Positions 13,533-32,639 of a stretch of DNA of 64,000 nucleotides are shown in pieces. Below the pieces are notes generated by a model. The model was not told the DNA's origin, did not search any database, and saw only the letters and a list, made by a program, of their open reading frames with translations. Each line of letters starts with the position of its first letter. Positions within the stretch are counted from its first letter, which is position 1. Made by a program: the position numbers and the translations under genes. Origin of the DNA: Xanthobacter autotrophicus (GTDB taxonomy: Bacteria > Pseudomonadota > Alphaproteobacteria > Rhizobiales > Xanthobacteraceae); NCBI RefSeq assembly GCF_005871085.1, contig NZ_VAUP01000015.1, positions 186,001 through 250,000 on the forward strand, given 5' to 3'.

Positions 13533-13580
13533 TGAAATCAAAGACTTAAGGCCTGTCGGCCGCTCTCGGCGGGCACTCGG

Positions 13581-13595: not shown

Positions 13596-13655
13596 CACCG
13601 CGGCGGGATTTCGCCCTTAAACGGGTATCCCGGCGTCGCGACGGGAGGCGGGCGC

Positions 13656-14165: not shown

Positions 14166-14211
14166 GAGCCGCCCCGCATTTGCGAGGCGGCGCCCTGTCC
14201 CGATAACGCAT

Positions 14212-14694: not shown

Positions 14695-15410
14695 GTCGGT
14701 TGTTCCTTGCTACGGGAAGCGAGATCCGGGAGTTAGCAAGCCGCACAACCACAGCCCCTCACGCCTTTAGGCTTGCGCCTTGGACATGCGCGCGAGGCTC
14801 CCGGATGTAACCGAATTGAAGCGCCGAAGAGTTGGCGTCAAGTGATGTTGTGTGTGAGCTGCTAAACCCGAAGACAATTCTGCACATGGCGGGCAGATAG
14901 TCAACATGCATAGAAATATTATTGCATGAGATAGCTTGTTTGTGTTGCATTTGTTGCGTTGTGTTGCTGCACAAAATCCGACACGACTTATATAACACTT
15001 TGAACATAAGCGGACTGCTGCGAGCTATCGGCCCTGATCAGTCCTGCCCCACCCCCTTCCCCACCCTCCCGGGGGGAGGGCGATCGCCTCGTCCGAAAAC
15101 GCGTAACCCGCTCCGACCAATTTTCGATCAGCTGAAATTGTCCGGGCCACACCGAGTGGACAGCCGGATCTTGAAATAGGAGCCCAGCGACCGCCACGCG
15201 CGCTTTCAGCTTGAATGGAAATGGCTTCCAGCCTACCTTACCCATAGGCTGTACTGCCGTGTCGCCGACGGTTGCCCTTATCTGCAACCTGGCCCATGAG
15301 CGACTGCTGCACTCATCCATAGAAGTGAAATTTAACCTCGGGCGATGGCCGCGTGGGGCCTTTCGTCTTTGTGCAGCTGCCCCCTTGGTGCCGTCGTACC
15401 AGGCTGATCC
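14695..15410. other. AT-rich non-coding gap with short repeats
   Basis: No convincing gene lies here. The part around 14860-15010 is the most AT-rich of the element and carries three TGTTGC words at 14943, 14952 and 14962, spaced 9-10 bases apart, next to a TATATAA stretch near 14989. A C/G hairpin CCCTCCC-GGG-GGGAGGG sits near 15065-15081. Weak minus-strand reading frames at 15180-15400 contain stops and show no recognisable product. It may hold promoters for both flanking genes. Confidence 0.4.
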
Positions 15411-17036: not shown

Positions 17037-19843
17037 TGGCTAACTTTTTCGATCAATTCGACGAGCCGGCGGCTCCGCAACGCAACTTCTTCGACCAGTT
17101 CGACCCGCCGCCCTCTCCGCTGCCGGCCGCTGGCGCAAACGGCTCTGGCGTCGTGCAGCCCGCCTTCGACCCGGGTATCGGTGTTCAGGGCGCCGCCCGC
17201 GGCGTCGGCATGTTCCTCGGGCAACTGCCCGATATCGCGAACATGGGCGCGAATGTCCTTCTCTCCGGTGCCGATACCGTCTCGCAAAAGCTCGGCGGGC
17301 CGGAAATCGGCTTCCGCTTCAAGATGCCATCGGAAACCATCCCCGCTTACGCGGGACAGCTGGCGAGCTCGGCGGGCATCAAGGTTCGGGATCCGAAAGA
17401 CATGTCGCCGGTCGAGCGCGCCGTCTACAACGCCAACACATACGGTACCCTTGGCGTGCTTTCTGGCGGAGCGCTCGCCCCCGTAGCGGCGGCTCGGGCA
17501 GCGGGAGGTGCAGCTCGCTTGCCTAAATTGGGTGATGCGCTCCTGGAGAGCTACGCCGCGGCGCCCGGACGGGCGGTTTTCGGCGAGGGCATCGCCGGTG
17601 CCGGAGCCGGCGCCGGAAAATCGGTCTCGGAAGAGCTGGTGCCAGACAGCGTTCGGCAATCCGGCACAGCGGGTGCCGTAGGTGGCGCGCTGTCCGACGT
17701 CTTTTCCATGCTCCTTGGCGGGACGGTGGGTGGCGTCGCGGCGAACGTGGCGACTGGGCTTCCGCAGGCGGTCGCGACCGCTAGGGGGTTCGGCCGTGCG
17801 CCGGAGATCCCGATCGACGCCGCGACGGGGCAATGGGCGCGCAACCGCGATGCTGACCAGGTCGCCCGATATGTGCAGGGGCACGCGGTCGACCCGCAAG
17901 GCGCAGCGGAGAGCATCGGTAAGGGTGCCAACGAATTCCGGCGGATGGGCGCCCCTACCCCTACCGCGGGCGTGCTGTCGCAGGACCCCGGGCTGGCGGC
18001 GGTCGAGGCCGCAGAGCGAAATCGGAACCCGGCAGCGTTCGCTCAGAAGGACGCCGCGTTGCGCGACGCCGCGCTCAACGAACTCGGGAAGAACCTGCCG
18101 CCTGACATCGACCCGCGGCTCGCGACCGACTTCATGCGCAGGGAGATTGATACCCGGCTGAACGCCGCTACGGGGGATGTGAACGCGGCCGAAGCACGGC
18201 TCGCCGACGCCGAAAGGGCACAGCGCGCGACGGCGGACATCGTTGCCCCCTTCGCCGGCGGCCGGAGCGACGCGAGCGCGACGCTCGACCGTTCCATCGT
18301 CGCGGGCAGCCTGGAACCGATGGACACGGCACGCCGTGCGGCGTTCAACGCCGTGCCGCGGGATGCGGAGGTGCCCGGCCGGCCGTTCGTCGACACGGCG
18401 ACCACGGTCCGCCGCTCTGCCGAGCACCTGCCGGAGAACGCGCGCCGTGAGGTACTGCCGGAGCAATGGCTGCAGGACTTCGAAAGCCTGCTGCAGCGGG
18501 ACGCTGATGGTCGGATCGTCGGGGTGCGGGATGTTTCGTTCGGCACCATCAACGACCTGCGGCCGATCCTCGGGGCCGCGATTGCTCGGGCGCGGAACGA
18601 GGGCGCGCCGCCGCCCTTCATCGATAATCTTGAGCGCCTCCGTTCGGAGATCAATCGGGCCACCATGCAGCAGCCGGAAGCGCGGGCGGCCATGGACCAC
18701 TTCGAGAACGTCTATGCGCCGGTTTGGGGGCGCCAGGCCGGGGAGGCTTACCAATTTCGTCAGGACCTGAATGTCGACCGGTTGCACCGTACTGCGGCGC
18801 CGCCGACGGCGACCGCGAACCGCTTCCTCACAACGGGACCCGGCGCGCAGGAAAAGGCGGAAGCCCTCGCCCGTGTGGTCCGGTCGATCGACGACCCTGC
18901 GAACCGGGCCTCCGCAGAGGGCGCGGTACGCGCCTATATCCTGGACGACCTGACGCGAACGATCGGTCGCGACGGGCGAATTCAGGACACGCGGCTCGCG
19001 CGCTGGCTGAACGGCCCAAGCGGCTGGGGAGATGCGCTGTCGCAATTTCCGGGTGTGCGGGGCGAAGTCGAACGGCTGCTCACCGACGTGCGGAGTGGCA
19101 ACATCACCCGCAACCGGTTGGCCGCCGACGTTGCCCGGGCGAACGCGAACCTGCAACGCACGCGTGCGGATGTTGACTCCTCGGCTCTCGCTCTCACCTT
19201 GGGGAAGGAGCCGACCAAGGCCGCGCAGGCGGTGCTCAACAGTGGTGATCCCGAGCGGTCCATGCGGGAGGTGATGCAGACGGTTTCGCGGGACCCGACC
19301 GCGAAGCTCGCATGGGAACGGGCCGTCACCGAACACCTGATCAAGAAGGTGACGACTGCCAATCCGGGAGCCGTCAGCGAGGGGGTCTTCGCGCCGGAGT
19401 TCCGCCGCCTCGCCGGGACCTTCCGCGAATACGAGCGCGCGCTCGCCGAGCTCTATGCCGGGCAGCCGGAGAAAATGCAGGCACTGCGTCGGGCACAGAG
19501 AATGTTGGAGCCGCTCGCCCGGCAGGCGGAAAAGGCAGCGCCGGGCTCCGTCGACGGTACGAACAAAAGCCTGTGGCGCTGGCTGGAGCTAGGCCTTAAG
19601 GCGACGTTCGGCATGCTGAAGGGCGGCGGCGTCGCGCGCACGCTTCGGGTGGCCGCCGGCACGGACGCCAACGCGGACTCGGCGGCGCAGCGCCTCGTCA
19701 CGCGGATGATGTTCGATCCGGAGCTCGCCCAGCATCTGCTGACGCGGGACGCCCAGGCTGTGGGCTCGCCGGGGTGGAACGGGAAGCTGCTGAGGCTGAT
19801 TGGGTTGACGGAGGGACTGAAAGAGGCTGGGAACTGGGAGTGA
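17036..19843 (+). CDS. Putative large phage internal virion / DNA-ejection protein
   Basis: A 935-residue protein starting MANFFDQFD; the NFFDQFD motif is repeated at residues about 3 and 19, a signature often seen at the start of phage internal proteins. Gly/Ala-rich hydrophobic patches at about residues 140-165 and 205-240 could insert into a membrane, and the rest is long and helical (for example RIVGVRDVSFGTINDLR). No transglycosylase motif is obvious. ATG overlaps the preceding stop (TGATG); GTG three bases earlier is possible. Together with the 541-residue gene it looks like an ejectosome pair left without other virion genes. Confidence 0.55.
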   Translation: MANFFDQFDEPAAPQRNFFDQFDPPPSPLPAAGANGSGVVQPAFDPGIGVQGAARGVGMFLGQLPDIANMGANVLLSGADTVSQKLGGPEIGFRFKMPSETIPAYAGQLASSAGIKVRDPKDMSPVERAVYNANTYGTLGVLSGGALAPVAAARAAGGAARLPKLGDALLESYAAAPGRAVFGEGIAGAGAGAGKSVSEELVPDSVRQSGTAGAVGGALSDVFSMLLGGTVGGVAANVATGLPQAVATARGFGRAPEIPIDAATGQWARNRDADQVARYVQGHAVDPQGAAESIGKGANEFRRMGAPTPTAGVLSQDPGLAAVEAAERNRNPAAFAQKDAALRDAALNELGKNLPPDIDPRLATDFMRREIDTRLNAATGDVNAAEARLADAERAQRATADIVAPFAGGRSDASATLDRSIVAGSLEPMDTARRAAFNAVPRDAEVPGRPFVDTATTVRRSAEHLPENARREVLPEQWLQDFESLLQRDADGRIVGVRDVSFGTINDLRPILGAAIARARNEGAPPPFIDNLERLRSEINRATMQQPEARAAMDHFENVYAPVWGRQAGEAYQFRQDLNVDRLHRTAAPPTATANRFLTTGPGAQEKAEALARVVRSIDDPANRASAEGAVRAYILDDLTRTIGRDGRIQDTRLARWLNGPSGWGDALSQFPGVRGEVERLLTDVRSGNITRNRLAADVARANANLQRTRADVDSSALALTLGKEPTKAAQAVLNSGDPERSMREVMQTVSRDPTAKLAWERAVTEHLIKKVTTANPGAVSEGVFAPEFRRLAGTFREYERALAELYAGQPEKMQALRRAQRMLEPLARQAEKAAPGSVDGTNKSLWRWLELGLKATFGMLKGGGVARTLRVAAGTDANADSAAQRLVTRMMFDPELAQHLLTRDAQAVGSPGWNGKLLRLIGLTEGLKEAGNWE

Positions 19844-19900
19844 AGTCACAGCTGCCGGTGCGGAACGAGCGCGAATGCGGTGGCGGGAGGTGGTCGCGCC

Positions 19901-20818
19901 TTACGCGGCTTCCTTCAACAGTATATGCTTGCCGATCTCATCGACCCTGTTAAGAGGACGCAGCCTGATCTCTTCCTGATCCGCCTGCGCTTCGAGCGCT
20001 TCAAGGGCCTCTCTGAGGCGATCGACTTGCTTCTGGCTCAACTGAGGATCGTTCATCGCCGGGTGTTGCACGATCATTTCATGGTCCCGCATTACCAAAG
20101 CTGATGGTTCCCTATCTCGGTCTACCTTAAGGTCCCATAAACGAGTCTTGATTCGCCTCACGGACGCCGTGAAGTTGCTACTGGCGAGCGTGCCAAAGTT
20201 GGCTACGAGCTTCGAGCCGGCGAAATCGATGATTACACTATGTGCATTCCGGCGCCGTTGTTGGCCGCTCCTGATTTCATTGCTGAAGAACCGTCCCAGG
20301 TTTGGCCGCTCCAGCTGCACGTATTCGAATACGAGCGCTGGCAGGCGATCACCGCTTTCACGAGCCTCCGCAACTTCTTCCAACACCTCCTCCTGCTCCT
20401 CTGAAAGCTGAAGGGCGCCGTTTCGCGTATAAAGTGAGGACATCGCAGTCATCCACGATACCGCGATCTGTTTAAGCGAAATGCCTTGCGCCTCGCGGAG
20501 GTCCCCCAGCAAGACACCAGAAATCGCCGGCTTAAAGTCTGTCAACGCAGAAGTCGACCGCCTAAATAAATCGGCCTCGATTACGTTGAGAGCAGTTTCG
20601 GCGACCATGATTGCCATTTCCGACGCATCGGAAAAGACGCATTCGAGGCGTCGAAGTTGATTCGCACGCTCTAAGTGGACGCCATTCTCACCGGCGACAG
20701 CAATGCCGATAACAAATTGCTCCGGCGATCCCATGATCGGCCGAAAGAGCACGGGAGACCAGATCGCCCGTTGTAGGCGATCGAAGTCCAGGAAGGTCGG
20801 AGCGTCTAGCGAGATCAT
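19901..20818 (-). CDS. Partner protein of HipA-like kinase
   Basis: A 305-residue protein of unknown function that starts one base after the stop of the HipA-like kinase gene, so the two are surely one transcript. Its first part (SPVLFRPIMGSPEQFVIGIAVAG) recalls DUF3037 proteins, which are often found next to HipA-like kinases; the likeness is weak and by eye. The C-terminal half is charged, with a coiled-coil-like stretch QVDRLREALEALEAQADQEE near residue 280. No signal peptide. It could be a substrate, an inhibitor or an adaptor of the kinase. Confidence 0.6.
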   Translation of the reverse strand: MISLDAPTFLDFDRLQRAIWSPVLFRPIMGSPEQFVIGIAVAGENGVHLERANQLRRLECVFSDASEMAIMVAETALNVIEADLFRRSTSALTDFKPAISGVLLGDLREAQGISLKQIAVSWMTAMSSLYTRNGALQLSEEQEEVLEEVAEARESGDRLPALVFEYVQLERPNLGRFFSNEIRSGQQRRRNAHSVIIDFAGSKLVANFGTLASSNFTASVRRIKTRLWDLKVDRDREPSALVMRDHEMIVQHPAMNDPQLSQKQVDRLREALEALEAQADQEEIRLRPLNRVDEIGKHILLKEAA

Positions 20819-20819
20819 T

Positions 20820-21677
20820 TCACGCCATCACAGGCTCGTTGAGCGCGTCACCTGCGGCGCGCGGGACATGGGGAATTCTCTGGGTCAGAAACGAGATCAG
20901 CGCCTCGAAATCTGGCGCGCCGATCAGGTTAATCACGCTGTTCTTTTCGCCCGCTTCTCTTACGTCAACTTCACGGAGTTGGATCGGCATGTTGGCGGCC
21001 TCGTCGGCCAGTCTCTTACGTTCTGCGGGGGGCAACAGGTCGGTGACCCATTCGCGTAGCCGGTGTCTGTACATTCCGGCCGCCACTAGGTCGACCTGGG
21101 TCCAGGTTGGTCCCGTGAAACATCGACCATGATCGATGATCCAGATGCCCGTTCCGGTTGCGAACAGTACGTTTCCGATATGCCGATCCACGTTCGCGAC
21201 CCACGCGTCGAAGCCATACAGCTCGCCGAGCCAAGACTCTTTGGTCAGAAGCTCGACTATTGGCCGAAGCAACACCAGTATCTCTTCGTCGGTGGGCCTT
21301 ATCACAAGCGAAGCAATGGACGGGCTGCTCACGTTGACGCTGGCAAACATAAGGCCGCGACCATCCTGCATAATCGCGCGGGTCGCACACGGGTTTCCCG
21401 GCTCTGTGACCCCGATGAAGGCAGGGGGAACGGGGAGACCGAGCGCTGACGCGAGGCTCGCGGCCAGAATTTCGTTTGCCAGTTCCCTGGGGGCCAAATC
21501 TTTCAGGATCGCCGTCTTCAGCTCTTTGCCACGAGTGAGAATCTGCCCCTGATAGGTGTCCGTGATGTTCGCGATACCCGCGTCTTTGAACGACGACGCT
21601 CCGGACATAACCTGGGCAAAATCGACAGTGCCGACAGGGCTATTGAAGTCGACCGTAGCTTCCGAAACGTCGTTCAT
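20820..21677 (-). CDS. HipA-like (PI3/4-kinase fold) protein kinase
   Basis: A 285-residue protein with kinase landmarks: a Lys in TAILKDL (about residue 60) fitting the ATP lysine, ELANEILAASLASALGLP, the catalytic loop FDAWVANVDRHIGNVLF (about residue 160) with the D-x4-N-x-D-R-H-x2-N pattern, and a metal-binding IIDHGRCF shortly after. The family includes HipA toxins that phosphorylate translation factors. It lacks the HipB-like partner of classical hipBA; a 305-residue gene follows instead. I chose ATG 21677, since GGGAGG then lies about 10 bases upstream; ATG 21686 is the alternative. Confidence 0.75.
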   Translation of the reverse strand: MNDVSEATVDFNSPVGTVDFAQVMSGASSFKDAGIANITDTYQGQILTRGKELKTAILKDLAPRELANEILAASLASALGLPVPPAFIGVTEPGNPCATRAIMQDGRGLMFASVNVSSPSIASLVIRPTDEEILVLLRPIVELLTKESWLGELYGFDAWVANVDRHIGNVLFATGTGIWIIDHGRCFTGPTWTQVDLVAAGMYRHRLREWVTDLLPPAERKRLADEAANMPIQLREVDVREAGEKNSVINLIGAPDFEALISFLTQRIPHVPRAAGDALNEPVMA

Positions 21678-22387
21678 TCCAAGCATCCCTCCCAACCGAC
21701 GCCTTTTTGAAGGGCCTTGTTGCGACGATGATAAAGCAAGCCGCCCCCGAGCGTCCCCTTCGGATCATTGGGGTGACCTCAGCCCTTAGTCGGCCCCAGC
21801 CTCGGGCTTGCAGTTTCGCCTGCGGGCCGGCTGAGTCAATGTGGCATTGAAAGCTGAAGTTGTGTGCGTCGCATCCGAGTCATCTCTGCTCGTTAGACGG
21901 GATCACCCAGCGGCTGGTCCTTCCTCTCACCGCGCGCCACGATCTCCAGCGCGCCGTCGGGCAACGGCCGCTGCAGCACCTTCGCCTCATCCCACGGCGC
22001 GAGCATCCATGCATCGAGCTCGGCCGGTTCCGTAAGCACCACAGGCATGGCCTTCGGATGGATGGCGGCCACAGGTTCGCTGGGCTCGCAGGTGAGAAAT
22101 CCTTAGAGGTCGGCGGAGATTCGATCCATCGGGCTGTTATTTTCCTTAGGTGCGACTGGACCGCACCACAGCCGAGCCGAACACAGCCGAAATGAAGGGC
22201 TGCGGCGAGATGCCCTGAGAGAGCTTTTGGCTGGACAACCGAACATCCGGCCACCCACCCGCGGAGGGAGGTGGATCCCTCGCCCACCGTCACGAGTGCG
22301 AAGAGGGCGTGGGGTGTGCGCCCGGCCGGCTCCGCGGTAGAAAAAGCGCGACTGCTCTCGTGAATTTTTGATCCTGGAGACCGTGCG
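21678..22387. other. Gap holding a gene remnant
   Basis: The only recognisable content of this 0.7-kb stretch is the SRAP remnant at 21893-22102. The rest, including the 285 bases before the next gene, shows no coding pattern. A GGAG ribosome site for the gene at 22388 lies at its right end. Confidence 0.5.
21893..22102 (-). pseudogene. C-terminal remnant of SOS-response-associated peptidase (SRAP/YedK)
   Basis: The minus strand reads [19 protein letters not shown], then [20 protein letters not shown], then [19 protein letters not shown] and a stop: about 69 residues matching the C-terminal third of SRAP proteins, including the conserved AxIHxxAMPVxL part with its His. SRAP proteins crosslink to abasic sites in single-stranded DNA through an N-terminal Cys2. 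That end, the Cys and the start codon are missing, and a TAA stop lies in frame immediately upstream. The sequence before 22103 is unrelated, so the gene was cut by a rearrangement rather than decayed in place. Confidence 0.8.
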
Positions 22388-23648
22388 ATGGCGACGCGCC
22401 TCACTCGCCGTGAACTCTATGACCTCGTCTGGACCGAGCAGGGGCCGCAAGCAGCGCTCAAGCTCGGCATTTCAGAGGCCCGATTGCGGGAGCTCTGCCG
22501 CAGCCAAGTGATTCCGGTGCCAACCGCTGCCTACTGGCAGGGATTGTCGGCAGGAGGGGCGCCGCTGCGAACACCCTTCAGCCCGGCTTGCGATCTCCAA
22601 AGGGAGCTGGTCACCATCGAGTCCACGAAGCTCCCGCGATTTCTTGAGCCGCCGCCTTTGGTCGTAAAGCGACCGGAGCCGCCGCCTCCCCGAAGGGGCA
22701 AGGTCCGCACGCCCGACCCCAAAAGCATCGCATGGCCTCGGGTCGATAGACCGCACCCGTTGGTGGCGCCCACCGCAGGCGCCCTTCGGCGGGCAAAGGC
22801 AAACCAGGGTGTGGTCCTCGTCGAAGGTGCAGGTTTGCTTACCGTCCGGATTGGAGTCCATTCCGTCGAGCGAGCGGTCGTGATCTTCGACGGGCTTGCC
22901 CGAGAGCTAGAGCAGCGCGATTTCACCTGCACCATCGTGGGCGGCCGCATCGAGGCGCACCGTGACGGAGAAGTCGTTCCCTTCTTCCTGAGCGAGCGCA
23001 TCGAAACTCCGCGGCATGAGCCCAGCGTCGCGGAATTGGTGGCGGAGGAGCATCACCGCAGGCGGCGGAATTTGCTTTCTGGAGATTTGCCACATAAGCC
23101 GGAAGCATACCCCAGCTTCGACTACGTGCCGACCGGAATCCTGACCCTGTCCCTGGACGTGATCAACCGGGAGGGCCGGCGCCAGATGAACTGGATCGAC
23201 AATAGCCGCGGCATTCTGGAACGGCAGGTTGGGGCGATCATCGAAGGGATCGAGGGTTGGATCGAGCTCAAAGGGCAATTGCGCCTTGAGGCGGAGCACG
23301 AGCAGCGGATCCGGATGCGGGAGGCGGAGAACAACCGTAGGGCTGAGCTCCGAAAAAAAGCGGGAGGACCAGCGGGGAGCCTTGCTGACCGAGATCGTGG
23401 ACATGGGCACGAGAGCCGCCCATCTCCGGGCGCTCATCGATTGGGCGGAGAATATGGAAGATCCTGAGGTACAGCGGCTCGTAGCCTGGTCGAAGGAGTG
23501 CCTTCAATCGATCGAGCATACGCTTGACCCAGCGTCATTCGGCCGCTGGCTGGCATCTCGGCGCCTGTTCCCCGAAACCGACCCCATCGCCCCGTTGGCG
23601 GACGATCCCGACACCGACAATTCCGGGGCGGGTTCGTCGCCCACGTAG
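22388..23648 (+). pseudogene. Conserved hypothetical protein interrupted at an A7 run
   Basis: The first frame (22388-23467) starts MATRLTRRELYDLVWTEQGP and resembles a family of proteins with an N-terminal helix-turn-helix-like segment (LKLGISEARLRELCR, then IPVPTAAYW) found on many proteobacterial mobile elements. At the A7 run 23353-23359 good coding sequence moves by +1 into another frame that ends at 23648 (KREDQRGALLTEIVDMG onwards, closing with RLFPETDPIAPL). Removing one A gives a 419-residue protein. It may be a sequencing error, a real mutation or slippage. The function of the family is not known to me. Confidence 0.7.
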
Positions 23649-23703
23649 CCGTTACTCGCATCGCGTGCCACAATCGGCGCCGGCAACGCTTTGGGGGCGC
23701 CCT

Positions 23704-24063
23704 ATGAGGCTTCTGGTTGTTTTCGTTCTCCTGCTGCTGGTGTTGACGGGCTTGTTCGTGCCGGCCCTGTTCGCCTTCGGCTGGATCCTGCTGGCCGTCC
23801 TCGGAGTCGCCCTGTTGGTCGCGCTGTTCCGCGGGGCCTTGGTGGTCGGGGTTGGCTTGCCGATCGCGCTCGGTGCCTCCGCTTTCGATTTCGTCCGTGG
23901 GCGGCGCGGCGCCCCGCCGCTCCCGCGGCACCCGCAGCCCGGCGATCCGGATTATCTGAACTGGGCGAACCGCGAGGGCTCGTATGCGCCCGGCGCGAAG
24001 CCGAAGCGGCCGTTTCTGGACGAGCTGCCACCGGCTCCGCAGGCGCGGCGCGGGATTTACTAG
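23704..24063 (+). CDS. Small membrane protein
   Basis: A 119-residue protein with two adjoining hydrophobic segments in the first 60 residues (MRLLVVFVLLLLVLTGLFVP and a second Ala/Val/Leu stretch), then a basic, Pro-rich tail with PQPGDPDYLNWANREGSY. The ATG at 23704 begins directly at the first membrane segment; an upstream extension of the frame is not coding-like. Function unknown. It lies 55 bases after the interrupted gene on the same strand. Confidence 0.65.
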   Translation: MRLLVVFVLLLLVLTGLFVPALFAFGWILLAVLGVALLVALFRGALVVGVGLPIALGASAFDFVRGRRGAPPLPRHPQPGDPDYLNWANREGSYAPGAKPKRPFLDELPPAPQARRGIY

Positions 24064-24500
24064 CGGCTGCTGTCGGCCCGGGCGACCGGCTCGGGTGAGG
24101 CTGGAATATTTCGCGAGAGCGTAGAGCGAAGGGATTTTTTGCGAAGGACTAGGCGCCGCTCGGGTGCTGCGATGGCGTTGGGATAGCGGAATGTTTCAGG
24201 ACGCGCTTATGCGCGGCCCGCATCACGAAATTCGGCAGAAGTGGTGAATTTTGCCAACAGGATTTCCGGGCATGGAAAAACGTCCCGAATGGAGTACCGA
24301 CGCACTGCGTCGCTCAGGCAGTGAATGTTCTGTATCCGGCTTCACCGATTAATTTTTCCGGTTAAACGGTGCGACAAACAGGCGGATCCTCTGCGAATGC
24401 ATCCTGCTGTCTGATCGATAGACATCGGCGCGTCTTTTCTTTTCTGCTGCGCCGTGCAATTTAAATGAAACTGGTTGTTTTCTGTGAGGGTAGGTCTCGC
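24064..24500. other. Gap without a recognisable gene
   Basis: About 440 bases with lower GC than the surroundings and many stops in all frames. A TTTTCCGGTTAAACGG segment and AT-rich stretches near 24340-24470 may contain the promoter for the small gene at 24501. I see nothing else. Confidence 0.4.
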
Positions 24501-24755
24501 ATGACACGCCTGTCGGTTGCTATCCTGGCCGGGCTTTTAGGTATAGCCCTCGCGCAATACTTCGTTGCGCCGCGCTTCCAAGTCTCAACCATGACTGGAT
24601 ATAAAGATCACCCGAAAGCTGTTGTACTTGATATTCGATCCGGGCAGGCGTGGATACTCCAATGCCCCTTGGGCCCGGAGTGCACCCTGCCCGCCCTTTT
24701 CCCGGTTATGTACGGCGCTCCGCTAAAGACTGGGCTTCAAGCAACGCCCCCCTAA
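24501..24755 (+). CDS. Small hypothetical protein with N-terminal membrane anchor
   Basis: An 84-residue product. Residues 3-20 are hydrophobic (LSVAILAGLLGIALAQYF) and act as a signal or anchor; the rest has two cysteines in a WILQCPLGPECTLPA segment. GAGGG ten bases before ATG 24501 favours this start over ATG 24465. It is isolated between a non-coding gap and a convergent gene. Unknown function and only moderate evidence that it is real. Confidence 0.45.
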   Translation: MTRLSVAILAGLLGIALAQYFVAPRFQVSTMTGYKDHPKAVVLDIRSGQAWILQCPLGPECTLPALFPVMYGAPLKTGLQATPP

Positions 24756-24824
24756 ATCGACAGGGAAGCGCGCTGAAGGGCAATCCGAGGCGGTACCCGC
24801 CCCGCGCAAAACAGTTCCGCTGAT

Positions 24825-25412
24825 TCATGAAAGCGCCTCCTGAAGCGCCGCGCCGGCCTCGGTCAGTCGGTAGACGTAGCGCTGGCCCTTATCCGGCGAC
24901 CAGCCGTCCGGCATCAGATCGTGGCGTTCGACGTACCCATGGGGCTCGATGAGGGGCCGGCGCAGAGCAAGATGGGTTCGCATATAGATCGTGTCGTGCG
25001 GCTTCTCCGACCCTAGGGCAACAGCGATCGCAGGCATGGTGTGCCACCTGCCCGGCATCATCGCCAGCAACACCGAGTGCCACCACGGGTGCGCCCGGGC
25101 TGCCCTGCGCGTGTCCCGCGTCTTCGCCCGGCGCGCTTCCTCGGCCTTCCTGAACTCTCGGTAGGCGTGCCCGGCGCGACGCTGCTCCTCTTCCTCCTTG
25201 CGCGCATGCCAGGCGTTCCACCCGGAGCGCTTCGGCGCGGCCGGCACGGCGCTATCGGGCGGGTCGGCCGGGGGGCTGCGCCTCGCCGTTGGCCGGGGCT
25301 TCGCAGCTGCCTTTCGCGGCTTGCGATGCTTCCGGTAGTTCCGGGCGCGCTCTTCCATGAGCGCGTGCCAGTCCTCGGGGTCGAAATAATTCAGATCGCT
25401 GTTTCTCGGCAT
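24825..25412 (-). CDS. Hypothetical protein with C-terminal winged-helix-like region
   Basis: A 195-residue basic protein. Residues 1-110 are rich in Arg, Lys and Glu with coiled-coil-like runs (ARKEEEEQRRAGHAYREF); residues 115-195 look like a winged helix (AIAVALGSEKPHDTIYMRTH, then a YVYRLTEAGAALQEAL end typical of wing-helix tails). It could be a DNA-binding regulator of the element. It follows the 183-residue gene on the same strand after 29 bases. Confidence 0.6.
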   Translation of the reverse strand: MPRNSDLNYFDPEDWHALMEERARNYRKHRKPRKAAAKPRPTARRSPPADPPDSAVPAAPKRSGWNAWHARKEEEEQRRAGHAYREFRKAEEARRAKTRDTRRAARAHPWWHSVLLAMMPGRWHTMPAIAVALGSEKPHDTIYMRTHLALRRPLIEPHGYVERHDLMPDGWSPDKGQRYVYRLTEAGAALQEALS

Positions 25413-25441
25413 CGGGGTCGTTCTCTTCGGCGCGGCCGGGC

Positions 25442-25993
25442 CTAGTTCAGCCAGGGGAATGCGATCGACGGGTCCGCCGCTCTGCCGTCGGGGAGCCGTT
25501 TGAAGTCCTCAAGGCGGAAACGCCACCTGCCGCCGGCGAACCAATGGAGACGGCCAAACCGCGTCTCGGTGGATCGGCAAGGCCCGCTGAAGGCAGCAGC
25601 AAGGCGGGCGCGCTTTCCCAGCGCCGCAACCGCCTCGCGATCGGCCTCCGGCATGGCTTGGACAATTTCGGCGTAGGCATACCAGCGGGCTCGATCGAGG
25701 CGGTGCGCGATCACCTCGGCGATAGCCCAGCGCAGGGCGGCCTCGTTCGCTGGTTGGCTTTTGCGCCGACCGGGGGCTGCCCGTTTCGGCGGAGGCCACG
25801 GATCACTGCGGTGAGTGGCGCAACGCCGGGTGGGCCAGCGGAAATACTTCCGGGTGCTTTCGAAGGTGAAGGGCCGGCCACATTGGACGCAGCTGGACGC
25901 CCAGCGGTACCGATGGCCGGTCAATCCGCTGCGCCGTACATACGGCTCGGCCGCCACGCAGAGAAATTCCTGGCCTTTGTAAACCCGTTTCAT
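25442..25993 (-). CDS. Hypothetical protein with zinc-finger-like motif
   Basis: A 183-residue protein with a Cys-x2-Cys (SSCVQCGR, about residue 35) followed by Cys-x2-His (RRCATHR, about residue 58), a spacing that suits a zinc knuckle. The middle is basic and Pro-rich; the C-terminal half is helical, then aromatic (LHWFAGGRWRFRLEDF). A GGAGGG ribosome site just before ATG 25993 fixes the start. It is the first gene downstream of the repeat region and the primase gene on the same strand. Role unknown; DNA binding is an inference. Confidence 0.6.
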   Translation of the reverse strand: MKRVYKGQEFLCVAAEPYVRRSGLTGHRYRWASSCVQCGRPFTFESTRKYFRWPTRRCATHRSDPWPPPKRAAPGRRKSQPANEAALRWAIAEVIAHRLDRARWYAYAEIVQAMPEADREAVAALGKRARLAAAFSGPCRSTETRFGRLHWFAGGRWRFRLEDFKRLPDGRAADPSIAFPWLN

Positions 25994-26055
25994 GCCGCCC
26001 TCCAATTCGGAGCGGGGAATGGGCAGAGAAGAATGGCGGTCGCGCCACGGACCGT

Positions 26056-26168
26056 GCTGCCGCTGCTGCTTGCATGTGAAAGAAAGCCAATTTCCTTTTC
26101 GAATTTATTCTTGGATTTCCCTACGCGGACTTCCGTGTCCCCTTCCGCGTGCAAGCAGCACTGGCAGC
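26056..26168. repeat. Hairpin repeat unit 1
   Basis: The arms are GCTGCCGCTGCTGCTTGC (26056-26073) and GCAAGCAGCACTGGCAGC (26151-26168), inverted and matching at 16 of 18 positions. After the left arm comes ATGTGAAAGAAAGCCA, which recurs in unit 2, and an AT-rich centre. An inner inverted repeat ACGCGGA/TCCGCGT lies near the right arm. Confidence 0.85.
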
Positions 26169-26206
26169 AGTGCACAAGGCCTTCCGGGGCTGCCTGCCCA
26201 GGCTTT

Positions 26207-26332
26207 GCTGCCACTGCTGCTTGCATGTGAAAGAAAGCCATTTCTTCCCTTTCGATAATATTCCCGGATTTTCCGACATTCATTTTCATCGGCCCGCTGT
26301 TCGTTCCAACGCGCGCAAGCAGCAGTGGCAGC
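26207..26332. repeat. Hairpin repeat unit 2
   Basis: The arms GCTGCCACTGCTGCTTGC (26207-26224) and GCAAGCAGCAGTGGCAGC (26315-26332) are perfectly complementary over 18 bases. The left arm plus ATGTGAAAGAAAGCCA repeats the start of unit 1 with one difference in 34 bases. The right arm ends 8 bases before the primase stop at 26340. Confidence 0.88.
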
Positions 26333-26339
26333 AACGTGG

Positions 26340-28967
26340 TCATTCCGCATCCTCCGCAGCCGAATGCTGCGCCCCGCGCTCGGCGCCAGCAGCGCGGATG
26401 CTTTCCCGAGCAGCACCACGCCTTTGACGCTCTGCCGCGGCTCTTTCAGCAAACAGCACGTGAACGTTGGGGTTCACCTCCCAGCGGGAGTCAAAGTTGG
26501 CCAGCGGCGCGGCCCATCCCGCCGAACAGAGCTCGCCCATGATGCGCCGGATGCGTTCCTCTTTGGCGGGACCCTTCAGCCGGCGGATGGGGCGGAAATT
26601 GGTGTACAGGTCCCTTTTTGAGATCCCAGCGATCCGATGGGCGAGGATGAAACCCGCGATCCATGCTGAATCTGTATCCTCACCGCGGGTGCCTTCGGCG
26701 CTGCGGTGAACGAATAGCTGGTGGGGAAACTGGTATCGCAGGAGGAACTCACCCGCCGCCCGAGCGGTCATTGTGGAAATAATCGGATCGGGTGGATCGA
26801 ATGGGAAATCGTTCGCGGCCCCGCTCGCGGCCCACTCGATCACATGAAAGAGGAGCGCAACGCGCGCCCATTCGCCTTCCAGCTTGTCGAGCCAGCCCCG
26901 CAGCCCAGCCGGAAGGTCGGCTATGCCCATGCGTTCATCGGCAAACGTCTTCACTGCCTGGCGCACGGCGTCGGCGCCGGCATCGAACCGGAACGCCTCA
27001 AGAAACTCGACGCTGCTCAGGTCGTGCAGCGCGTGCGCCACTGCCATCAGCGCCGCCAGGGCAGCCGCATCGGGAGGGCGATCCACATCGGTGCTGGTCC
27101 GCTCCATGTGGACCATCAGGAACCGCTGGAGCATGCCATCGGCCGCGATCCCCTCGTATTGCTGGCGGAGCACATCAGGTTGAATTCCGCCGAGCATGCT
27201 TACGGCCAACGCGGGTACTGTCACGGGCTCGCGGGACAGCCGAATTACGCGGAAGGGCTGGCCCTGCTTTGCCCCAAGCCAGAATTCGCGGTCCTTGCTC
27301 GCCCCCCGCGGCCGGTATGCGTCGAATCCCCCTATCCAGCCGGACAGCTCATCGCGCACGCACGCGAGACCGTTCGGATTATCCGCAAGGACGGGGGCAA
27401 GTGCTTCAACGGTCACATCGTTGACCAACACAGCTCGGTGCCTAGGGCGCGTCGGCTCGGGCGCCGTGCGGTCTGATTTCGGGGTCTTTGCCCAACTGGC
27501 GCGCGCCTCACTGAAGCGGGCTTGAGTGTGTGCATTCTCGCGATCCAGCTGTGCCTGGATCTTGTTCAGCGGCTCGCAAGCGAGGGACAGTGCCGGCGAT
27601 TTCTTCGCGCCCGGCGCGCCGTGAAGCAGGCCCCAAAGGATCGGGCGTTCAACATAACCCGTGTCGCGCTGCTTTACCTGCACGGTCATTCCCGCCGGCG
27701 CCAAGCCGCTGAGAACCACCAGCGCCGGCACCGCAAGGCAGCCGGGGTCGTAGTCGCCAAGGCGAAAGGCGGCATCTCGTGCCCACCGATCGAGGACCTC
27801 GGGGAAGATGCCGGCCGGCAGTCGGGGCGGCGGCTGCAAGTCCGCCCACAGGTCTTCCGGCTCGGGCCAAGGGCGATCGCCGGGCGGAAGGGCGTCGGGT
27901 GCCACGGCGTCTTCCATTTCTGAAGCCCCCGCTTCCAGCCCGAACTGCGCCGCGACGCTGTGCTCGCCCGCCACGCCGGTGGCATATCGGTAGGCGTTGC
28001 CGACAAGGGTGCTCGCGTCGTCCGCGTCCAAAGGCGGATCGCAGCGCCCAATCCAGTGTTCCAGTACGAGAGAAAGGCACTCGCCTTCGCTGACGCCCAG
28101 GTCGCGCACCCGGCAAGCCACCTCGTAGGTGGTGATCCCCCGTGAGCCGAGGGCCGCTGGCGGAGCTCCATGTCTTAGCCACTCGACCGCCCGTGCGATG
28201 TCGGCCGGGTGGTCAGGCGACACCCCATCTCGCGCTTCGTTCTCCGGCCGCGCGGCTCCGCACAATGCCAACAAGTCGGGCGGCGCCTCGGCGATCGGCA
28301 GGTCGTCCAGCACCGTGTACGGCGCGCCGTCGACGGTCGATCCCGCCAGCACCACCTGGCCGGCCGCGCCGCGCACGTCGATGCCGCAGTCCCTCCCGAA
28401 CTTCGCCAGCATCCGGCCGTTGGCGTTGGAGATGGGTGCGGCGCCGTCAGGGAGGTGGAACAGCATATGGTAGCCGCCGGAGGCGGAGCGCTGCGTGTAG
28501 GTCTCCGGGAACAGCGCGTTGAAGAGCTCGAACAACTCCGCGCCGCGCTTTCCGTGCTTCACGTCGAAGTCGATCGTGCAGCCGGAAATGCCGCCCCAAT
28601 TGCACCCGGGGAACTCCTCCGCCCAACGGCGGATGGTGGCTTCGTCGGTCGTTGCCAGGCGCTGCCAGTTGTCGAGCACAGGCGCTTTGCTGTTCGGCGG
28701 GATCGGAAGGACGCGGATGCCCCTCCGGGCGGCGGCGATGGCATGGTCGAGCATGGGGGGTACGGGCTCCCGCGCAATTTCGTGCGCGCTGTCGCCGCGG
28801 GATTGACCAGCGGCGATGATTGTCGGCACTGTCGGTGCGTCATCATTCGCCAAGTAGTGGACAATCGCCGCAGTGGCTTGCCGCGAGGTGTTGTCGGCAT
28901 GCTCTTCCCGGCCGATTTGGCGGGCAAGGGCAAAGATGTCCTCGAACGAAGTTACTGCCGCCATCAT
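26340..28967 (-). CDS. PrimPol-DUF3987 primase/helicase-like replication protein
   Basis: An 875-residue fusion. The N-terminal half has an archaeo-eukaryotic PrimPol domain (about residues 70-250) with the catalytic DxD in CTIDFDVKHGKRG, the S-x3-H segment SGGYHMLFH and the later acidic motif CGIDVRGAAG. The C-terminal half fits DUF3987, an ATPase-like module, with a degenerate Walker A in GAPGAKKSPA and a DELSGWIGGFDAYR segment. Such proteins start replication of plasmids, satellites and integrative elements. ATG 28967 overlaps the preceding stop as ATGA. Confidence 0.85.
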   Translation of the reverse strand: MMAAVTSFEDIFALARQIGREEHADNTSRQATAAIVHYLANDDAPTVPTIIAAGQSRGDSAHEIAREPVPPMLDHAIAAARRGIRVLPIPPNSKAPVLDNWQRLATTDEATIRRWAEEFPGCNWGGISGCTIDFDVKHGKRGAELFELFNALFPETYTQRSASGGYHMLFHLPDGAAPISNANGRMLAKFGRDCGIDVRGAAGQVVLAGSTVDGAPYTVLDDLPIAEAPPDLLALCGAARPENEARDGVSPDHPADIARAVEWLRHGAPPAALGSRGITTYEVACRVRDLGVSEGECLSLVLEHWIGRCDPPLDADDASTLVGNAYRYATGVAGEHSVAAQFGLEAGASEMEDAVAPDALPPGDRPWPEPEDLWADLQPPPRLPAGIFPEVLDRWARDAAFRLGDYDPGCLAVPALVVLSGLAPAGMTVQVKQRDTGYVERPILWGLLHGAPGAKKSPALSLACEPLNKIQAQLDRENAHTQARFSEARASWAKTPKSDRTAPEPTRPRHRAVLVNDVTVEALAPVLADNPNGLACVRDELSGWIGGFDAYRPRGASKDREFWLGAKQGQPFRVIRLSREPVTVPALAVSMLGGIQPDVLRQQYEGIAADGMLQRFLMVHMERTSTDVDRPPDAAALAALMAVAHALHDLSSVEFLEAFRFDAGADAVRQAVKTFADERMGIADLPAGLRGWLDKLEGEWARVALLFHVIEWAASGAANDFPFDPPDPIISTMTARAAGEFLLRYQFPHQLFVHRSAEGTRGEDTDSAWIAGFILAHRIAGISKRDLYTNFRPIRRLKGPAKEERIRRIMGELCSAGWAAPLANFDSRWEVNPNVHVLFAERAAAERQRRGAARESIRAAGAERGAQHSAAEDAE

Positions 28968-29419
28968 GCGCCTACATTGTCCGCGAGAGGCCCCAGCTCG
29001 GACGTAACCACACCGGGGCGCTTCCACTGCTCGGCGAAGGCGCGCCACTGCGGCGCGACCTCCGGCGTCGTCTCTATGGTCAGCGCGCGGCGGTTCGAGC
29101 TGCCGGAGACGAGGGCTGCAAGTTCAGCGCGTCGCTGCATTCCCGGCGCCGACCAAATAATGATGCCACCGGCGAGCCGCACCATCCATTTGAGCGTCAT
29201 CTGGTCGAAGTCGTTGGGGTTCGGGACGCGACCGCGCGTGCCTTCGCCGCGAACGCACAAAGACACCCAATGGCTTGCCTCTGTGATCCGGCGAGACCGC
29301 CGAGGAAGACCGCTCCCCGGCGCAAGATAAACCATCACTGCGCGCCGTCCCCCAGGCGCTGGGGCAGAAAACGCACGCGCGCCCTCGTCAGGCGGCATAA
29401 GTTGTGATAGATAATCCAT
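28964..29419 (-). CDS. Hypothetical protein upstream of primase
   Basis: A 151-residue protein starting MDYLSQLMPPDEGARAF at ATG 29419, with GAGG in the ribosome position. A longer frame reaches 29527 but overlaps the upstream gene. It has a central VVMVYLAPGSG-like strand region and ends by overlapping the primase start (ATGA), so it is co-translated with the replication protein. No recognisable domain; the position is one where satellites often carry a small replication or copy-control protein. Confidence 0.65.
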   Translation of the reverse strand: MDYLSQLMPPDEGARAFSAPAPGGRRAVMVYLAPGSGLPRRSRRITEASHWVSLCVRGEGTRGRVPNPNDFDQMTLKWMVRLAGGIIIWSAPGMQRRAELAALVSGSSNRRALTIETTPEVAPQWRAFAEQWKRPGVVTSELGPLADNVGA

Positions 29420-29483
29420 AGCATCAACCTCGTTCTGGCCCGACTCGCTCTCCCGGCGTGTCGGGCTTTTTGTTGCTGATGAG

Positions 29484-29948
29484 CTAAGAGGAGGTGCCCC
29501 CGATCTCACGCGCTGCCCGTCCCGCAAGCTTTTCGAGCAAAAGCTTCTTCCATTCCAGGTGAAGGCGCTCAGGGGCTCGGATGGTTAGCTTTCGCGGATG
29601 CCGGGCGCCGTTCAGCACACCAGCTTCTATCGCTTGCAGAAACGGGGGGTCCGGCTCGCACAGCTCTGCTTCGGCCGCGACGGAGAAAGCCCAGTCCAGC
29701 ACCGACGAATCGAAGTGCATGGGCAACAGAGCGACATCGTCCGGAGCGTCGCCGAATACCACGATCTGAAGGTTCGGCGTCGACTCCAATGCGCGTCGGA
29801 TGAGGGGCGTTAGCGGCCCTGCCCCCGGCAGGATGTAAAGATTCGCGACAGGGCCGAATTGCGAGTGGGAAAACATCGCCATGGCTCCCGTCCACATGGG
29901 GGGCTCCGGCGGCTCTTCCCGCTCCGGCGGGGGGACGTGGGCATTCAT
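29484..29948 (-). CDS. Hypothetical protein of the replication operon
   Basis: A 154-residue product beginning MNAHVPPPEREEPPEPPMW at ATG 29948, which overlaps the AlpA-like gene stop as ATGA. After a Pro/Glu-rich start it contains NLYILPGAGPLTPLIRRALE and a final basic helical part. Its layout (a short acidic start, a similar central strand pattern and a basic tail) faintly resembles the neighbouring 151-residue protein, so the two may be distant paralogues. Function unknown. Confidence 0.6.
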   Translation of the reverse strand: MNAHVPPPEREEPPEPPMWTGAMAMFSHSQFGPVANLYILPGAGPLTPLIRRALESTPNLQIVVFGDAPDDVALLPMHFDSSVLDWAFSVAAEAELCEPDPPFLQAIEAGVLNGARHPRKLTIRAPERLHLEWKKLLLEKLAGRAAREIGGTSS

Positions 29949-30163
29949 GCCGCGCACCCCCTCGGGTATTCGCTCGTGCTGCGAAACTTTCGACCTGCAG
30001 CCCATTCCCGCAGGTCGCGGACCTGGTAGACGATGCGGCGGGGGGAGAGGCGGAGAAAGGGAGGCCCGCCGCCGTAGACACGGAATTTCGCCAAGCTCGA
30101 CTCTGTCAGGCCCAGCAGCTGCGCGGCATCTTTCGGGGGGAGATAGGTGTCAGGGGACTGCAT
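29945..30163 (-). CDS. AlpA/excisionase-like helix-turn-helix protein
   Basis: A 72-residue protein with the MerR-like HTH_17 pattern YLPPKDAAQLLGLTESSLAK, then a GGPPFLRLSPRRIVYQVRDL wing and a LREWAAGR end. AlpA-type proteins activate excision or replication genes of satellites such as P4 and phage-like islands; excisionases have the same fold. It is placed between the integrase-side genes and the replication genes, where it could control both. ATG 30163; the stop overlaps the next start. Confidence 0.85.
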   Translation of the reverse strand: MQSPDTYLPPKDAAQLLGLTESSLAKFRVYGGGPPFLRLSPRRIVYQVRDLREWAAGRKFRSTSEYPRGCAA

Positions 30164-30247
30164 CCGGTTCGCTCCTGCGTTCCCTCCTAGGGATAACCCT
30201 GGGGTGCAAAGCAGTGTGCGTGGTTCCGGATGTGGGAAACCAAGGCC

Positions 30248-31051
30248 CTAATTCGAGTGGACGTTCTTCCTGCCTCGGGGCCGCCCACGGGCACTCCAAG
30301 CCTCAGCGTGCGGCAGCCCTTTGGCCTTGGCGGCCCGAAGCGCTCGCCTCCACACGCGGCTTAGCGTTTCCTCCCCGCCCCCGTCCTCGACAAATCCGAA
30401 ACGGCGGAGGATCTCATCGCGCAGGCCCGCGCGATCAGGGGGAGGAGGTCCCATTTCTACTAAGGAAATGATGTGCTCCTGTATCGCGCCCTGCATGTTC
30501 TTACGGCCAGACGAGAACTTTGGCCCTCTCTTTGCGGGCCACAATTTTCGAAGGTCGCCGGCATGAACTTGCGGCTCCGTCCAGCAAAGCTTGGGGATGG
30601 ATTGCAGGCAGAGATGCGGCCCAAGGTCAGCCTCTTCATTGACGATTTTTACGGCGCGCCAATCCGACACGGCAATGATTTCAGGGATTTTGCTTTGGCG
30701 CTGCCCGCGCATCCGAAGCGAAACACCTTCGGCGAGGCGCGCGAGCAGTTGCCGAGCTCCAAAGTCAGCGCTGCCAGCAATGAGCGTTTCCGGGGGAGCA
30801 ACCTCGCCACGCACCAAACGAGCGGGATTCTTTGCATGCGCCAAGAGGCCGACGCGCATGGCGCCGATGAGGCCGGCCGGGACACGTCGCCCCCGGCGCG
30901 TTCGATGTTCTCCAGATGTGGATTCAGCCACGGCTGTAAACACCCAGTCGCCGGTTTCTATCCAAATCAGAGCAGCGTTCAGGGACCACCATTCGGCGCG
31001 CCGTAGGGCTTTTTCGGCGGCGCCATCTTGCGGGCGATCATCGTCCGTCAC
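30248..31051 (-). CDS. Hypothetical protein between integrase and AlpA-like gene
   Basis: A 267-residue protein starting at GTG 31051, which overlaps the integrase stop (GTGA). It contains a Trp-rich opening (AEWWSLNAALIWIETGDWVF), a basic middle and a C-terminal part with DEILRRFGFVEDGGGEETLS and a strongly basic end (SARGRPRGRKNV). The pattern of a helical C-terminus with ETLSRVWRRALRAAK suggests DNA binding but no named family is recognised. Tight coupling to the integrase suggests a role in recombination or its control. Confidence 0.65.
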   Translation of the reverse strand: MTDDDRPQDGAAEKALRRAEWWSLNAALIWIETGDWVFTAVAESTSGEHRTRRGRRVPAGLIGAMRVGLLAHAKNPARLVRGEVAPPETLIAGSADFGARQLLARLAEGVSLRMRGQRQSKIPEIIAVSDWRAVKIVNEEADLGPHLCLQSIPKLCWTEPQVHAGDLRKLWPAKRGPKFSSGRKNMQGAIQEHIISLVEMGPPPPDRAGLRDEILRRFGFVEDGGGEETLSRVWRRALRAAKAKGLPHAEAWSARGRPRGRKNVHSN

Positions 31052-32418
31052 TGCGGCGCTCTCCCAAATGCGGGAATCACAAGGGCGGTGGCCCTCCCCT
31101 CCATAGCAGCTGATATCTTGTCGCTGATGGAGTCGGCGGCGCGGCGCAGCGGATCCGCGTCGAGATGGCTGTAGCGCGCTGTCGTGGCGGGCTGCGCATG
31201 CCCCAGCAGCTTGCCGACGATTGTCAATCCGAGGCCGGAGCCGGCGCCCACGCTGGCAAACGAGTGGCGCAGGTCGTGCAGCCGGACAGTCGCCCGCTCG
31301 ACCACCACCGGCGCGCCGTGCTCATCCGCGACGGGCTTGCCCTCTGGCGTGACCTCCGCGGCCCGTTCAATGAAGCCCGCACGCCGGGCCACGAGCGCCC
31401 AAGGGCGCTGCAGATCCGCCCGAGGTCGCTCCCTCTCTGCGCCTGCGGAAGCCCCCACGATCACGAACTTGCCCACGCGGGGCAGGTCCGCGAGCACGCG
31501 AAGCGCGGCGGTACTCAGCATCAGGCGTTTTTGCCCCGTCTTCGTGTCCGGAAGGAAGGCAATGCCCCGCTCAAAATCGACCTGGCTCCACTGCAAGTGT
31601 AGGATTTCCCGCAACCTGGCGCCGGTGAAAAGCAGGAGGCGGATCGCTGCGACTGCGTGCGGGCCGAGCACTACGCGGCGGTTTTCGGGTTTCGGCGCGT
31701 GCTTCGCCTTGGGGGACGTTTCGTCGACTTCGTACGGGATACCGACCGTTTCCGCCTCGATCAACGCCGCGCCCAGGCGCGTGAGCTCCTCTGTCGTCAG
31801 GAACCGCTCGCGACCGTTCTCCCTGTACTTCTCGATGCCGCGCGCCGGATTGAGTCCCTCGGCGACAAGTCCGCGGCCTCCAGCCCAGGCGAAGAGCTTG
31901 CCCATAATCGCCAGCATGCGGTTCGCCTGAATCGGACGGTCCGCCATGTTCGTGTGGAGGCGTGCTACATCGGCCCGGGATATGCTATCCGCCTTCCGGC
32001 TTCCGAGGGCGGGTTTGATGTCCCGTTTGATGACGCCCGCATAGCTGATTGCGGTTGTCGTCTTCCGCTTCGCCAGAACGTGCTGGGCAAGGAACTGGTC
32101 GGCCACCTCGGAGAGCGTGGGCGCCTCCCGTGCCTTCTTGCGCTCCTCCCCCGTGTCGTGCCCCCGCACCGCGTCGGCAATCACGCGCTTGGCGAGCGTG
32201 CGAGCCTCCTCCGGCGTCACCTTGCCGACGGGGGCGATGGTCACTCTCCGCGTGGGCGCGCCTCGCCCACGCCCGACGCGATATTTCGCGACGTAGCTCA
32301 TGGCGCCTGACGGACGAACGCGGATACCGAAGCCGTGCAGCTCCGAATCCCATTCGAAGAATTCTTCGCCCTTCGGTTTGAGGGAATCCACGAGCCGTTT
32401 GTTGATGCGAACGCCCAT
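31048..32418 (-). CDS. int: Tyrosine recombinase / integrase
   Basis: A 456-residue P4-like (DUF4102 N-terminal) integrase that would integrate and excise the element at tRNA-Lys. Residues 1-90 carry the arm-binding domain (INKRLVDSLKPKG), then the SAM-like core-binding domain, then the catalytic domain with Arg in TGARLREIL, Lys in PDTKTGQK, His-x2-Arg in LHDLRHSFAS, His in LLGHAQ and nucleophile Tyr in TARYSHL near the end. GGGGAGG upstream of ATG 32418 fixes the start. Its gene is 172 bases from the right att repeat, the usual place. Confidence 0.95.
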   Translation of the reverse strand: MGVRINKRLVDSLKPKGEEFFEWDSELHGFGIRVRPSGAMSYVAKYRVGRGRGAPTRRVTIAPVGKVTPEEARTLAKRVIADAVRGHDTGEERKKAREAPTLSEVADQFLAQHVLAKRKTTTAISYAGVIKRDIKPALGSRKADSISRADVARLHTNMADRPIQANRMLAIMGKLFAWAGGRGLVAEGLNPARGIEKYRENGRERFLTTEELTRLGAALIEAETVGIPYEVDETSPKAKHAPKPENRRVVLGPHAVAAIRLLLFTGARLREILHLQWSQVDFERGIAFLPDTKTGQKRLMLSTAALRVLADLPRVGKFVIVGASAGAERERPRADLQRPWALVARRAGFIERAAEVTPEGKPVADEHGAPVVVERATVRLHDLRHSFASVGAGSGLGLTIVGKLLGHAQPATTARYSHLDADPLRRAADSISDKISAAMEGRATALVIPAFGRAPQ

Positions 32419-32589
32419 GCTTGCCTCCCCTGCCCCACTACGGTAACCACGAATGTAACCACCGTGGGCCGAAACCATCGGCATTTTAGGGAAAGATCGG
32501 CGGGTTTGCCAATGCCGAAAATTGTGCATTGTCAACCAGTTTCAGCACAGGCTTTCCACTCACAGGCAACACCAGGAAACGTTCAACGT

Positions 32590-32639
32590 GTGACTTTTAA
32601 TCATGGGGTCTCGGGTTCGAATCCCGACGGGCTCACCAA
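32590..32639 (+). repeat. att repeat (distal side)
   Basis: Right copy of the 50-bp repeat, identical to 13483-13532. It holds only the 3' part of tRNA-Lys and cannot form a tRNA. The sequence past it returns to host-like DNA. Confidence 0.93.

Follow-up and report, generated by a model that had tools for sequence, protein, structure and literature searches.

The window, i.e., the whole stretch of 64,000 nucleotides that was analyzed, contains an integrative mobile element carrying a primase-helicase gene (here called the primase) and, next to this gene, two inverted-repeat units (Table 1). The extent of the element follows from a perfect 50-bp direct repeat (13483–13532 and 32590–32639) that covers the 3′ half of tRNA-Lys(TTT), together with a tyrosine integrase at the distal end; the first copy of the repeat falls inside the tRNA-Lys gene (13456–13531), and the integrase adjoins the distal copy. 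No empty insertion site could be demonstrated among 14 genomes of the same genus, in which the left flank and the tRNA match and the right flank does not. Two genomes of the genus (G161 and G194) carry a second tRNA-Lys-like fragment 11–17 kb from the first, which suggests that other elements occupy the same site.

Besides the Prim-Pol/DUF3987 protein, the element encodes a HipA-like kinase and many proteins of unknown function. Among the element open reading frames searched, no phage structural, packaging, PICI regulatory or interference genes were recognized, and no nicking Rep family of the kind that serves a rolling-circle origin was found among the element proteins searched. Two adjoining genes on the minus strand (19901–21695) encode the HipA-like kinase (PF20613) and a PHROG_21150 protein, possibly a toxin-antitoxin-like pair or kinase cargo; a reading as a defense system was set aside, as PADLOC gave weak matches only, for the HipA-like protein. 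A homologue of the 936-residue element protein, 68% identical, shares a viral contig with the primase relative L035, and another lies ~20 kb from the primase of L006 in genome G203; judged from these sequences, the viral contig and G203 probably carry sister elements with both proteins. Elsewhere in the same genome, a second DUF3987 gene (L051; G000:C32:157427-158524) is followed by mirrored 9-bp AAACCC iteron sets, which makes it probable that this genome harbors a further element whose origin word differs.

Table 1 Features of the element and of the region 3′ of the primase gene
Feature	Position	Strand	Description
Integrative mobile element, 19,157 bp	13483..32639	.	Inserted in 3′ half of tRNA-Lys(TTT)
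936-aa element protein	17033..19843	+	Marker of sister elements; homologues with L035, L006
Replication protein (primase), 902 aa	26340..29048	−	Prim-Pol 103–257, DUF3987 ATPase 434–765, predicted winged helix ~793–858
Tyrosine integrase	31048..32535	−	PF00589 E 9e-16; PHROG_1 integrase E 1e-52
Origin unit 2 (putative), primase-stop-proximal	26205–26334	−	Iteron pair, 98-bp core, inverted iteron pair
Origin unit 1 (putative), distal	26055–26169	−	Iteron pair, 85-bp core, inverted iteron pair
Unit 2 TGCTGC iterons	26328–26333, 26319–26324 (−); 26215–26220, 26206–26211 (+)		
Unit 1 TGCTGC iterons	26164–26169, 26155–26160 (−); 26064–26069, 26055–26060 (+)		
Box in unit 1 arm, after iterons	26073..26092	+	CATGTGAAAGAAAGCCAATT; common to both units
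Same box in unit 2	26224..26243	+	CATGTGAAAGAAAGCCATTT; common to both units

The domain make-up of the primase was derived from sequence and from a structural model. Pfam identifies the Prim-Pol domain (PF09250, E = 4e-29) and the DUF3987 domain (PF13148, E = 2e-54), and the AF2 model (mean pLDDT 74.7) has at the C-terminus the order H-b-H-H-b-b typical of winged helices; this predicted winged helix (793–858) is a candidate iteron-binding domain. Foldseek comparison with the PDB returned the pRN1 primase (E = 5e-7) and MCM2-7/ComM helicases (E = 1e-5 to 1e-3), with low whole-chain TM-scores as expected for a multidomain query, and from the Pfam boundaries we infer that the pRN1 primase matches the N-terminal part and MCM/ComM the DUF3987 part. 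A PDB sequence search with the family profile gave nothing credible. Helicase activity of DUF3987 and origin recognition by the winged helix were both predicted by Kazlauskas et al. (PMC5862659); furthermore, deletion of the DUF3987-type primase in the PICMI satellite lowers copy number, the gene being needed for full copy number (PMC10803314).

Two units 3′ of the primase gene

The 334-bp gap between the primase gene and the next gene (25442–26005, minus strand) is filled by the two inverted-repeat units, which lie 151 bp apart from start to start. A preliminary description of the locus had noted two tandem hairpin-like units beside the primase gene; they are real, and their bounds are refined in Table 1. 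It had given the inverted arms as 18 bp, perfect in unit 2, and a shared direct repeat as 34 bases. The unit 2 arms (26205–26224 and 26315–26334, with 90 nt between them) are indeed perfect but 20 nt long, and the direct repeat linking the units is present but measures 38 nt (26055–26092 and 26206–26243, 95% identical), the earlier ends being 1–4 nt short. The unit 1 arms (26055–26082 and 26142–26169) are 28 nt long and 82% complementary. The preliminary description had overlooked a 6-bp word repeated at 9-bp spacing within each arm: every arm contains TGCTGC twice, exactly 9 bp apart, and each unit has the layout →→ core ←←.

Counted past the stop codon in the direction of the primase gene, TGCTGC occurs at offsets 6→, 15→, 119←, 128←, 170→, 179→, 270← and 279←, giving the overall order →→ 98 bp ←←, 36 bp, →→ 85 bp ←←. 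The first iteron starts at the seventh base past the stop codon, i.e., immediately 3′ of the gene, where PICI/SaPI origins are placed. The cores flanked by the TGCTGC pairs have a G+C content of ~46%, versus 66.7% in the window and 65% in the primase gene, in agreement with the AT-rich centers in a GC-rich setting reported earlier; AT-richness is here relative to the surroundings only. Inward of the iterons, one arm continues with TTGCGCG or TTGCACG and the opposite arm with TTGCATGTGAAAGAAAGCC. At the position of the box listed in Table 1, relatives have CTTGCG(CG), often with (G)TGA/GCGAG; GTGA/GCGAG is present in 12 of 26 arms, against 14% expected from shuffles. The CTTGCG(CG) box follows variable iterons in a long-core group comprising this locus, L035, L006, L008, L036, L014, L010, L041, L009 and L013, and might serve to signal melting or priming.

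The arrangement was scored 3′ of each gene with a four-word score, in which two words 7–12 bp apart are mirrored 20–220 nt away (maximum, 36). The present site is not attributable to chance, because it attains the maximum of 36 against a mean of 26.4 and a maximum of 30 in 20 shuffles, and because 36 is reached nowhere else in the window (637 sliding windows). No other window position scores above 33, and a second iteron site corresponding to P4 ori1 was accordingly not found by this score, which leaves room for single scattered iterons. The repeat word does not recur in the 5.0-Mb genome with up to three mismatches allowed, and the repeat DNA has no match in 199 other genomes of the family.

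Conservation of the layout with changing words

To the relatives of the primase found in 398 genomes of the order and in plasmids, phages and viral contigs, we added DUF3987 genes from 385 genomes at the level of the class and 399 at that of the phylum. Just past the stop codon, 27 of 60 primase/DUF3987 loci score at least 33, all 27 with period 9 and mostly with different words; the samples are modest, and the 27 include one group of three near-duplicates. Among control slices from gene bodies and far downstream, 0 of 232 score above 31. With the threshold fixed beforehand, an independent second sample gave 9 of 28 loci at 33 or above, again all with period 9, versus 1 of 111 controls. A lag spectrum, which is independent of the mirrored model, shows a 6-mer recurring after exactly 9 bp at 54 of 85 loci versus 25 of 255 controls; for 18 bp the counts are 29 of 85 versus 15 of 255, and the lags next to these are not raised comparably.

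The closest relative of the primase is L035 (51–54% identity), followed by L006 and L041, and at all three the feature is found at the corresponding position but with other words; absence of the units beside related primases, which the preliminary description had named as an observation that would count against its proposal, is thus not what is seen. At L035, a perfect 33-nt inverted repeat begins 12 nt past the stop codon, with TGTCAC twice at 9 bp. The word pairs are TGTCACCAC and TGTCACTTG at L035, TGTCACCGC and TGTCAC at L006, TGTTGCAGA and AGTTGCTTG at L041, and TGTCGACAT and TGTCGCTTG at L036, which is the 10.7-kb plasmid RHOAph. On this plasmid, the DUF3987 gene is the only evident replication gene, and the motif lies at its stop codon. 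Further inverted repeats with other words are found 3′ of the primase at L010, L014, L011 and L020. At L057, GACAAA forms two successive paired units (offsets 47, 56, 79, 88, 152, 161, 184 and 193, in the order > > < < > > < <), and doubling is therefore not unique to this window. Several relatives have unequal iteron numbers per side (three versus two) or extra unpaired iterons.

About half of the sampled loci lie below the threshold, some of them with direct iterons only. An example is the 7.6-kb plasmid pOSC7112.05 (L077), where the DUF3987 gene is again the only evident replication gene and is followed, from position 7383 onward, by four direct TGTGCCA words and no mirroring. No iterons were found 3′ of Escherichia coli yfjI. 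Searching genome contigs with the primase yielded one distant relative only, and none turned up in viral contigs when the L006 and L036 proteins served as queries; a viral-contig search with the pattern CACTTGCGCG-N50-80-CGCGCAAGTG gave one match, which has neither iterons nor a primase and was taken as chance.

Mirrored 9-bp, sometimes 8-bp, iteron pairs also occur 3′ of DUF5906 and VapE-like genes (L115–L158). Of 30 DUF5906 loci, 15 score at least 33, the period being 9 at 12 of them and 8 at the other three; the corresponding count for VapE-like loci is 5 of 12, with a period of 9 at four and of 8 at one.

Known origins and alternative explanations

The relation to P4 crr proposed in the preliminary description is borne out as one of analogous layout, with two units and mirrored 9-bp iteron pairs 3′ of a primase gene. 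The P4 record annotates two 120-bp repeats (4291–4410 and 4471–4590) just 3′ of the alpha gene (gene end 4636), each with two direct type-1 iterons 9 bp apart followed by two inverted ones 18 bp apart, and because of this 18-bp spacing our strict score does not single out P4 crr. The two systems differ in the iteron word (type-1 iterons TGTTCACC and GGTGAACA, TGTTCAC, versus TGCTGC), in the primase-helicase family (Toprim-type in P4 alpha, Prim-Pol PF09250 with DUF3987 PF13148 here) and in unit spacing (180 versus 151 bp). Moreover, P4 has a separate ori1, whereas the top four-word score reveals no second iteron cluster in this window. In PICIs, the origin follows immediately on the 3′ side of rep and has two iteron sets around an AT-rich region; such origins can maintain a plasmid (PMC6092414). 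The present region shares with PICI/SaPI origins this position and the iteron sets flanking an AT-richer core, but it involves another helicase family, its unit is doubled, and PICI regulatory, interference and packaging genes were not recognized in the element.

A stem-loop 3′ of the pRN1 replication gene was found by two groups to be required for replication (PMC4234260, PMC3869888). We find that its arms (L168, pRN1 5030–5350) contain TGTCCATAG and TGTCCA mirrored across 64 nt, with a score of 36 and period 9; pRN2 scores 32, also with period 9. Berkner et al. describe the pRN1 origin as a stem-loop without iteron structure (PMC4234260), and the available portions of PMC4234260 and PMC3869888 make no mention of 9-bp iteron pairs in the arms. 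Like the present system, pRN1 combines an AEP Prim-Pol, a helicase and a winged helix (predicted in our case) with an inverted repeat of ~100 nt just 3′ of the gene and 9-bp iteron pairs in its arms, and its primase is the best PDB fold match of our primase domain; unlike it, pRN1 is archaeal, has an SF3 rather than an MCM-like helicase domain, and has one unit. Joshua et al. report that 3-bp deletions in the pRN1 loop are lethal, and call the loop insensitive to base substitution (PMC3869888); lethality of such deletions would be expected if two bound complexes had to be spaced exactly. The self-loading SCCmec helicase Cch2 offers a further parallel, since its isolated C-terminal domain binds short iterons in the putative origin directly downstream of its own gene, and SaPI Rep is described as recognizing its origin in the same way (PMC7581432). 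The Cch2 site differs in being made of 5-nt AAGTG direct repeats, and its inverted repeats can be deleted without loss of binding (PMC7581432).

The pRN1 work also bears on an alternative, namely that the units act as cruciform or stem-loop origins in which an extruded hairpin is recognized and the iteron words serve arm pairing only. A mutation in one arm of the pRN1 stem was lethal, and replication returned once a matching change in the other arm made the stem symmetrical again (Berkner 2014; PMC4234260), an outcome that a pure iteron model does not predict. In long-core relatives, furthermore, arm identity continues through the 3-nt spacer and the inner 3–6 nt, and left and right spacers are 0.71 identical versus 0.26 between loci (35 loci). 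A stem, however, could form without any 9-bp direct repeat inside its arms; such a repeat is nevertheless present in more than half of the loci in the lag spectrum, and many loci have unequal iteron numbers per side or extra unpaired iterons. We regard a purely structural site as unlikely; the site may be composite, with a role for pairing as well.

Location directly 3′ of the gene, and the strong fold of unit 2 as a single strand (−65 kcal/mol), would also suit a structured non-coding RNA or a transcript-level element, such as a terminator or regulatory RNA, ending the primase operon. The preliminary description had entertained a structured RNA and had proposed looking for compensatory changes. 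Arm mismatches pooled over 34 loci are not enriched in those tolerable as G-U (59 versus 61), no Rfam family matches at the site (tRNA-Lys is the only Rfam match in the window), and the mirrored pairs are retained where iteron numbers differ between the sides. The separate terminator of pRN1 is dispensable, and the stem-loop there functions when moved elsewhere (PMC4234260). An RNA function is thus highly improbable. Terminal inverted repeats and an AT-richer interior are features that a MITE-like mobile repeat, or a degraded gene, could bring beside a primase by chance. Here they belong to a single locus in the genome, absent from the 199 family genomes, while the position 3′ of the primase is kept in relatives with unrelated sequence, and no open frame accounts for the units; the probability left to this explanation is close to nil. 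Finally, iterons of plasmids often act in copy control, and the units might be operator, partition or incompatibility sites for an element protein, with the origin elsewhere. We consider this improbable: the site follows the gene and is not at its promoter, no second top-scoring site exists in the 64-kb window, and the equivalents in pRN1, P4 and PICIs are required for replication.

A probable replication origin and its implications

Our analysis makes it very probable that the region is a replication origin of the P4-crr/PICI type belonging to the tRNA-Lys integrative element. This assignment is based on the recurrence of the layout 3′ of related primases with different words, on the plan shared with P4 crr, pRN1 and PICI counterparts and the function of those of pRN1 and PICIs in replication, and on the fold match to the pRN1 primase and MCM together with the motif at the only evident replication gene of RHOAph. 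Against it stand the half of the loci below threshold, the symmetry rescue in pRN1, the GC-skew, whose minima and maxima fall away from the motif both in the element and in the plasmids checked (in pOSC7112.05 the minimum lies ~0.3 kb away), and the core lengths, which show no evident common helical phase when distances are judged by inspection.

The 9-bp mirrored repeats are probably the landing site of the element's own primase-helicase, as far as can be judged from sequence. In the mechanism we propose, the winged-helix C-terminus of the Prim-Pol/DUF3987 protein would bind the 9-bp-spaced TGCTGC pairs, and each unit would carry two protomer sets of opposite orientation, by which the MCM-like ATPase would be loaded as two rings facing each other. 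MCM is loaded in the form of double hexamers with opposed rings, which would match a mirrored site. Melting would then take place in the AT-richer core flanked by the iteron pairs, and the Prim-Pol domain would start primers there, allowing the excised circle to copy itself; both units would be used.

The P4-crr/PICI kind of origin is known, and what is new here is its doubled form linked to a Prim-Pol/DUF3987 protein; further novelty may lie in the general rule of mirrored pairs at 9 bp and in the interpretation of the pRN1 arms as iterons. DUF3987 replication genes are found in satellites, plasmids and integrative elements, and no published origins for them were found in the literature searched. 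We lean toward the view that a single origin code, a short word pair exactly 9 bp apart and mirrored across a core 3′ of the gene, is common to the primase-helicases of mobile elements with at least three ATPase families (MCM-like DUF3987, DUF5906 and VapE-like), from bacteria to archaeal pRN1. If this is true, a shared code would bring P4 crr, PICI origins and the pRN1 'stem-loop' under one scheme, and the 9-bp mirrored-pair rule would allow origins and their recognition words to be read directly from sequence. The question of specificity, i.e., which winged-helix residues read which word, would thereby become testable.
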